A stretch of 40,298 nucleotides of DNA from a virus, in IMG/VR virus record IMGVR_UViG_3300008453_000582, positions 1 to 40,298 of that record; one strand, written 5' to 3'. The translations under genes were made by a program, and so were the position numbers. How positions within the stretch are numbered: the stretch's first letter is position 1; every line of letters starts with the position of its first letter. Shown here in pieces: positions 28,693 to 29,438 of the stretch. The notes below the pieces were generated by a model that had not been told where the DNA came from, ran no database searches, and was given only the letters and a program-made list of their open reading frames with translations.

Positions 28693-29301
28693 TCACTGGT
28701 CAGATGACTTAAACGTCATTTTCAACAAAGCCTCCGCAACTCTTGCGTCAGTCTGCTCTGCAGCAAATGCGGATGCAAATTCAATTTTCTTTACTCTCCA
28801 CGCTTCTGACGCATCATCTATGTTTGCGTATCTACCCAGGTGATTCCCGCTTCCACACCTAACTTGAAACTTTTTTGTTTGAACGCAAATTGTCACACCC
28901 TGCGGAAGATTTCCTCTTCTCTTTTTCAGGTATGCAATAAAGTTGTTTAAGCGTTTTGATATAAAGCAGCATCGATCTGGGCCGTAAATCTTGTTGCCAG
29001 CAATCAGTAGATCCTTATCCAGATGCTTTCCTTGCCAATCCTGCCGCTCCATCCAGCGCTTGAAATTACTGAAAGTTAGCCACTCATCACAAACAGAGCA
29101 ATCAACGTAAGTGGGTTGTCTTTTTTGATATTTATCAGAGTAACAGCGCATTAGCATGTTTCGCCACGCCTGATAAAACGGACATCTGAATATCAGCTTC
29201 TTTTTTGGGCCAGAGTTATCGTATTTTTCTGTCACATAATCAGAATCGTTAACGCCAACGCCTTCAACTAGCTTTCTATTTCCAGTCATATAATCCACCA
29301 T
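28693..29301 (-). CDS. HNH-like/AP2-like DNA-binding protein (putative homing endonuclease)
   Basis: 202 residues from ATG 29301; ATG 29289 and GTG 29316 are in-frame alternatives. FRCPFYQAWRNMLMRCYS, then YVDCSVCDEWLTFSNFKRWM and HLDKDLLIAGNKIYGPDRCCFI, belong to a phage/plasmid family related to HNH enzymes, though the first catalytic His is not obvious. The C-terminal part (LPQGVTICVQTKKFQVRCGSG...LGRYANIDDASEAW) looks like an AP2-type DNA-binding domain. It has its own promoter and a structured leader, so it is probably an inserted cassette. Confidence 0.75.
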   Translation of the reverse strand: MVDYMTGNRKLVEGVGVNDSDYVTEKYDNSGPKKKLIFRCPFYQAWRNMLMRCYSDKYQKRQPTYVDCSVCDEWLTFSNFKRWMERQDWQGKHLDKDLLIAGNKIYGPDRCCFISKRLNNFIAYLKKRRGNLPQGVTICVQTKKFQVRCGSGNHLGRYANIDDASEAWRVKKIEFASAFAAEQTDARVAEALLKMTFKSSDQ

Positions 29302-29308
29302 AAAATTA

Positions 29309-29420
29309 AACCCCACGCAGTTGAGACGGGCTGTAGCAAGCCACCTGCATGGGGTTCAAAGTTCTGCTACCTGTTTATCCTGCTTTTGGCAGTCAATCAG
29401 CTTGCGTCTCACGGCTTACT
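29309..29420 (-). promoter_or_regulatory. Pseudoknot-capable leader RNA that sequesters the HNH/AP2 start site
   Basis: On the reverse strand: helix A TGAGACG (29411-29405)/CGTCTCA (29328-29322); hairpin D CTGC/GCAG (29392-29380); helix C GTAGCA (29370-29365)/TGCTAC (29338-29333); and helix B joining 29356-29345 in the loop of C with 29320-29309, 12 pairs including one G-U. Helix B crosses A and C, a pseudoknot, and contains the GTGGGG ribosome-binding sequence before ATG 29301. GCAAGC next to A can also pair with GCTTGC next to C, so alternatives exist. Confidence 0.65.
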
Positions 29421-29429
29421 GATGAGTGC

Positions 29430-29438
29430 ATTATATCA
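29430..29438 (-). promoter_or_regulatory. Extended -10 promoter for the leader RNA and HNH/AP2 gene
   Basis: Reverse strand TG-A-TATAAT, a perfect extended -10; no good -35 at the right distance, which such promoters do not need. Transcription would start near 29423, just before the first helix of the leader. Confidence 0.65.

Follow-up and report, generated by a model that had tools for sequence, protein, structure and literature searches.

Introduction

Homing-type endonucleases of phages have to spread and yet not kill the phage that hosts them; to our knowledge, restraint of free-standing endonucleases has been described for only a few T4-like cases. Endonucleases of the T4 type are restrained by hairpins over the ribosome-binding site (RBS), and in front of seg43(25) of Aeromonas phage 25 a hairpin ends just before an exposed RBS, a structure to which no role was assigned in that work (PMC2988022). 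In AbiF-RCd22, a promoter, a structured RNA, a Rho-independent terminator and a protein gene lie on one transcript, the RNA being a binding partner of the protein as well (PMC12373285).

Here we describe a leader RNA ahead of an HNH endonuclease gene in the IMG/VR virus record IMGVR_UViG_3300008453_000582, a stretch of 40,298 bases that was analysed as a whole and is referred to below as the window. Like the leaders of I-TevI, segB, Aeh1 mobE and seg43(25), it is a structured RNA positioned right ahead of a homing-type endonuclease gene of a phage, and like that of seg43(25) it ends just upstream of an exposed RBS. It differs from these four hairpins, which are described as lying over or beside the RBS, in several ways: a promoter of its own sits at the base of the fold, two pseudoknots covary, a U-tract is present, and the RNA recurs across different phages. 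The layout of promoter, structured RNA, putative terminator and protein gene is shared with AbiF-RCd22 and the type III toxin-antitoxin systems, but the protein is a DNA-type HNH nuclease and some variants of the leader lack the terminator.

Results

The leader sits on the minus strand of the window between a PAPS-reductase-like gene (30424-29507) and the HNH gene. The protein encoded downstream matched the phrog_953 HNH endonuclease in a profile search (E 5.3e-80), which places it among the HNH endonucleases, and its C-terminal part resembles plant AP2 domains, with a profile match to the AP2 of WRI1 (7wq5, E 0.0011). The homologues in the alignment begin near K-L-(V/I)-x-GVGxND, which sets the start codon at ATG 29289. 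The features of the locus are listed here in the direction of transcription.

29430-29438 (-): extended -10 element TGATATAAT, supported by the TAnnAT spacing to P1 in close leaders
29296-29423 (-): leader RNA, match to covariance model R1 over 128 positions (148.1 bits), with homologues in other phages
29396-29423 (-): hairpin P1, ATCAG 29423-29419 with CTGAT 29400-29396, and upper GC 29415-29414 with GC 29405-29404 (alignment, RNAalifold)
29406-29411 (-): A5', TGAGAC, in the P1 loop, partner of A3'; covaries (TGATGC, TGAAGC, TAGTGC, TAGGAA in relatives)
29380-29392 (-): hairpin P2, CTGC-CAAAA-GCAG (covariation analysis)
29366-29370 (-): F5', GTAGC, partner of the hairpin C loop; both-sided changes in 5/5 pairs
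29345-29355 (-): B5', ACCCCATGCAG, pairing runs outward to 29359 (alignment, helix listing, RNAalifold)
29329-29342 (-): hairpin C, GGC 29342-29340 with GCC 29331-29329; middle pair G-C, A-U or C-G among relatives
29333-29337 (-): F3', GCTAC, inside the C loop (covariation, permutation)
29322-29327 (-): A3', GTCTCA, inside the B loop (covariation, permutation)
29310-29320 (-): B3', CTGCGTGGGGT, 3' strand of the terminator-like stem (alignment, helix listing)
29302-29310 (-): U-tract TTTAATTTT, immediately 3' to the G-C portion of stem B; all close leaders are U-rich here, and 8 distant ones have at least 6 T
29295-29299 (-): Shine-Dalgarno sequence (SD) GGTGG, at a position common to relatives (GGTGA/GGTGG)
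28693-29289 (-): HNH endonuclease of 198 aa, AP2-like domain at the C-terminus (phrog_953, profile, homologue alignment)

The order of elements is thus P1 with A5' in its loop, P2, F5', B5', hairpin C with F3' in its loop, A3', B3', the U-tract, the SD and the AUG.

Homologues were gathered by blast, by scanning for patterns and by searching IMG/VR with a protein alignment; the single HNH protein of the window as query gave no matches in IMG/VR, whereas the alignment did find homologues. Ten further phage contigs have a close leader before an AP2/HNH endonuclease gene. A weak blast match in Pseudoalteromonas phage Pq0 proved to be the same leader before an HNH gene, with compensatory changes in B; the other close leaders are L015, L016, L041, L049, L051 (identical to L052), L056, L082, L104 and L121. 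Covariance model R1 recovered all close leaders, Pq0 with 43.9 bits and the others with 99-148 bits, most of them having been used to build the model. In searches of whole records, significant matches ended between a few and about 20 bases before the start of the HNH gene and all of them adjoined such a gene, with no orphans in 25 records. Phage G001 has two cassettes, each with a different leader, and the related phage G011, which has no HNH gene, gave no significant model match (E 0.086). Several candidates were discarded as chance matches: H3 (Rhodobacteraceae phage, blast), which falls inside a CDS; L097 (Fermentibacteria, GTDB pattern scan), which reads as coding DNA; and L098, L099, L105 and L106, of which L099 is a tRNA. 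The Pq0 cassette (L002 2277-2430) lies, as judged by eye, directly downstream of two tRNA-like genes.

The extended -10 element placed at 29438-29430 by a preliminary description of this DNA is present, and a TAnnAT hexamer ends 4-7 nt ahead of the first P1 base in 10 of the 11 close leaders, the window included (exactly 6 nt in eight of them). A -10 box near P1 was also seen in several distant leaders. The DNA farther upstream of the leader is unrelated between most loci. Taking into account this lack of relationship and the fixed spacing, transcription most likely starts at 29423, where P1 begins, and the promoter most likely travels with the leader and the HNH gene.

The fold was assessed on an alignment of 8 sequences, with 35 pairs in six helices, and compared with 500 shuffles. 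In this alignment 93.9% of the cells were paired compared with 76.5 (sd 1.5) after shuffling, 51 cells were changed on both sides compared with 15.3, and the covariation score was 0.545 compared with 0.176 (sd 0.025); none of the 500 shuffles reached the observed value in any of the three measures. When the helix partners were slid by 1-3 columns, pairing was 45% or less. All six helices covary, both pseudoknots included, and compensatory changes exceed those of the shuffles, as is characteristic of a conserved structured RNA. An unbiased listing of helices kept in at least 7 of the 8 sequences ranked these six highest by number of double changes (B split into two pieces), and no other helix in that listing had more than one double-change cell. 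RNAalifold independently yielded P1, P2, B and C together with two extra pairs closing the P1 loop. The single sequence by itself gives a modest folding-energy signal (z = -2.86), 2 of 200 shuffles being equally good. On this comparative evidence the predicted fold is well supported.

Since A and F each cross B, the leader has two pseudoknots that meet in the loop of one hairpin. The preliminary description had named missing covariation in helices A, B and C as the result that would speak against it; covariation is present, and the proposal of a self-contained promoter and a truly pseudoknotted RNA before an HNH/AP2 gene is strongly supported by promoter spacing and covariation. Helix A is real and has 6 bp (TGAGAC 29411-29406 with GTCTCA 29327-29322); the seventh pair assigned to it holds in only 3 of the 8 sequences, and its G helps to close the P1 loop instead. 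Helix B was recovered at 29355-29345/29320-29310, 5 of its 11 pairs having changes on both sides. The CTGC/GCAG helix formerly called D and renamed P2 here was recovered as well. The pairing formerly called C also exists, with covariation in all five pairs, but it is the F pseudoknot (GTAGC 29370-29366 with GCTAC 29337-29333). P1 and the small GGC/GCC hairpin (29342-29340/29331-29329) were absent from the earlier model.

Beyond the close group, ten distant leaders (L025, L030, L043, L045, L046, L057, L058, L066, L093 and L132, with near copies L154 and L164) have the identical order of parts and almost no common sequence. Within any one of these leaders, the P1 loop fits the A3' region and the linker fits the C loop of that same leader. 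The own-pair sums for A and F were not reached in any of 20,000 between-leader permutations, in which the pieces were kept fixed and only the partners were swapped; the boundaries of the pieces were drawn by hand, which makes the test partly guided. One L132 piece used in the permutations mismatched the L132 DNA; the F pair of L132 is visible in its leader sequence.

The architecture was found at 16 of the 80 nearest IMG/VR homologue loci (15 if the identical L051 and L052 are counted once). The leader is not essential to the gene, since roughly four fifths of the closest HNH homologues have none. The full architecture was detected at 11 of 860 control ORFs and at 15 of 20 HNH ORFs, a comparison that gauges false positives and not frequency, the records having been chosen for having the architecture. 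The leaders of L056 and L104 are 94% identical and the proteins 50%, and for this reason the leader looks like an exchangeable control module rather than a protein-specific partner. The protein tree of the HNH homologues is poorly resolved, with leader types scattered across it, and we therefore draw no claims about origin from it. In two phage contigs of about 90 kb, six (G022) and nine (G023) HNH/AP2 homologues occur, and of those inspected few have a leader of this class. Clean empty insertion sites were sought: the flanks of G001a and G004 showed a slot with different content and no clean excision. A comparison of L206 2247-2950 with L208 8431-8096 shows one gene junction that holds a leader and HNH cassette in one phage and an unrelated small gene in its relative, which suggests a slot exchanging its content.

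A U-tract follows B in every terminator-type leader, and 17 of the 19 leaders of this type have 17-21 nt between the end of B and the AUG. Terminator strength was estimated by the d'Aubenton-Carafa score. The score was positive in all 8 distant terminator-type leaders (11.7 to 19.9), which classes them as intrinsic terminators, and borderline in the close group (-25.9 to 5.8), where 9 of 11 values were below zero and the window had -6.9. The weak scores of the close group are due to the large loop and the interrupted U-tract. A standard terminator scan, whose limit is exceeded by the B loop, did not report B. B of the window has the stem and the following U-tract of an intrinsic terminator but a score below zero, and may be a leaky one.

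The preliminary description had taken the 3' strand of B for the ribosome-binding sequence. With the start at ATG 29289 and the SD at 29299-29295, B leaves the RBS uncovered; it ends 21 nt before the AUG and the U-tract comes next, an arrangement that lends no support to control through the RBS at the window locus. An SD inside the hairpin, as in the T4-type endonucleases, was found only in L045 and L057, where the 3' strand of B contains AGAGG; L057 lacks a U-tract. A GCAAGC/GCTTGC pairing proposed earlier as an alternative fold is absent in L015 and L016 and is not among the conserved helices. The helices kept in at least 7 of the 8 aligned leaders include no antiterminator or switch pairing, and regulated relief therefore has no visible means. 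A regulatory role, as in the earlier proposal, is likely; the RBS and switch components of that proposal lack support.

Discussion

The best reading of these sequence comparisons is that the leader is an attenuator carried with a mobile HNH gene. We think it probable that a leaky terminator, clamped by pseudoknots, limits in cis the synthesis of phage AP2/HNH endonucleases, which would fit selection for a low dose of nuclease. Transcription would begin at the base of P1, and in the emerging RNA the P1 loop would pair with A3' and the upstream linker with the C loop. Because A3' and the C loop both lie in the B loop, these pairings may clamp that loop, which is large, and favour closure of the B stem of 11-15 bp. 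B and the U-tract would then act as a leaky intrinsic terminator just before the SD and the AUG, keeping the nuclease at low read-through levels. In a few relatives the identical clamped B stem would cover the SD instead: L045 and L057 have the SD inside B within the same architecture, which points to one fold with two output modes. That a single architecture ends either in a terminator or in SD occlusion argues for an RNA that acts in cis and lowers expression of the HNH gene.

The same features have to be weighed against other explanations. It is possible, though unlikely, that the functional product is the released RNA of about 110-120 nt, a small RNA that would hold the HNH nuclease in check by binding to it. 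The gene layout equals that of RCd22-abiF (PMC12373285), the RNA has its own promoter and an expected discrete 3' end, and it is strictly linked to the HNH gene. However, L045 and L057 have the SD inside B, and in L057, which lacks the U-tract, no discrete RNA is expected; near-identical leaders serve proteins just 50% identical, many homologous HNH genes have no leader, and the tandem repeats looked for as a mark of type III toxin-antitoxin or AbiF-like RNAs were not found, each element having one copy on direct inspection of the leader and each cassette one model match. A combination, in which the double-pseudoknot RNA would limit expression in cis and, once released, hold the nuclease inactive as an RNA-restrained selfish endonuclease, appears quite unlikely. 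We also regard it as distinctly unlikely that control is translational, the pseudoknot about 20 nt before the AUG hindering 30S loading or B sequestering the RBS. The stem-to-AUG distance, which stays close to 20 nt and hardly varies, and the SD inside B in L045 and L057 would suit such control, and RBS hairpins regulate T4-type homing endonucleases, the seg43(25) hairpin ending just before the RBS (PMC2988022), but the window and the other close relatives have the SD outside B and a U-tract after it.

Two further readings account for less of the structure. A passive insulator, merely blocking read-through from the upstream operon and stabilising the 5' end of the mRNA, would agree with the co-directional position of the HNH gene behind another gene and with the ordinary terminators behind which several homologues are placed; a simple hairpin would suffice for this, which leaves no explanation for a pair of covarying pseudoknots or for the fixed position of the promoter at P1, and we hold this reading to be very improbable. 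The position of a structured RNA just upstream of an HNH protein recalls IscB with its omega RNA, but a guide-like role is extremely improbable, as the 198-aa protein shows an AP2-like DNA-binding domain and no other nuclease or guide-binding domain, the RNA appears to begin at P1 without an unpaired 5' guide, and neither HEARO nor any other Rfam model matched.

The attenuator reading invites comparison with known attenuators and riboswitches, which likewise have one upstream fold joined to a terminator or an SD-occluding platform. The present leaders differ from them in that neither a conserved antiterminator nor conserved binding-pocket nucleotides were found: distant members share topology and hardly any loop sequence. 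With almost no unpaired nucleotides in common and no conserved alternative pairing, the ligand response considered in the preliminary description is unsupported. With Rfam release 15 (4227 models) nothing in the window scored at or above the gathering score, the only match near the leader was a chance miRNA match (E 5.9), and 20 loci of HNH genes with leaders gave tRNAs only. HDV-like, pistol and other ribozyme readings were dropped for want of an Rfam match. The leader represents a structured-RNA family absent from Rfam; it appears to work like an attenuator and matched none of the named RNA families tested. No description of this RNA was found in the open-licence literature, and an earlier account may exist elsewhere. 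It would make a new Rfam family of unusual geometry, a terminator hairpin with its loop clamped by two pseudoknots. The RNA is compact and recurs, it has a promoter of its own and two apparent output modes, and its fold is backed by compensatory changes; this makes it a directly testable control element.

A second, different class of leader precedes other members of the same HNH/AP2 family (L011, L029, L050, L062, L065, L085, L091, L096, L122, L130, L133, L143 and L162). It is located about 20-150 bases ahead of its HNH gene and comprises a closing helix, often a UUUAGCGG-type loop, and a hairpin. The loop of this hairpin pairs with a stretch downstream, before the SD, and for these hand-picked regions the own pairing exceeded all 20,000 permutations. 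In the window, a promoter-like site at 28684-28657 (TTGACA-16-TACCAT) overlaps the inverted repeat TGGTAGTGGTATACCATTACCA before a small ORF (28631-28272) and looks like the operator of an autoregulated gene.
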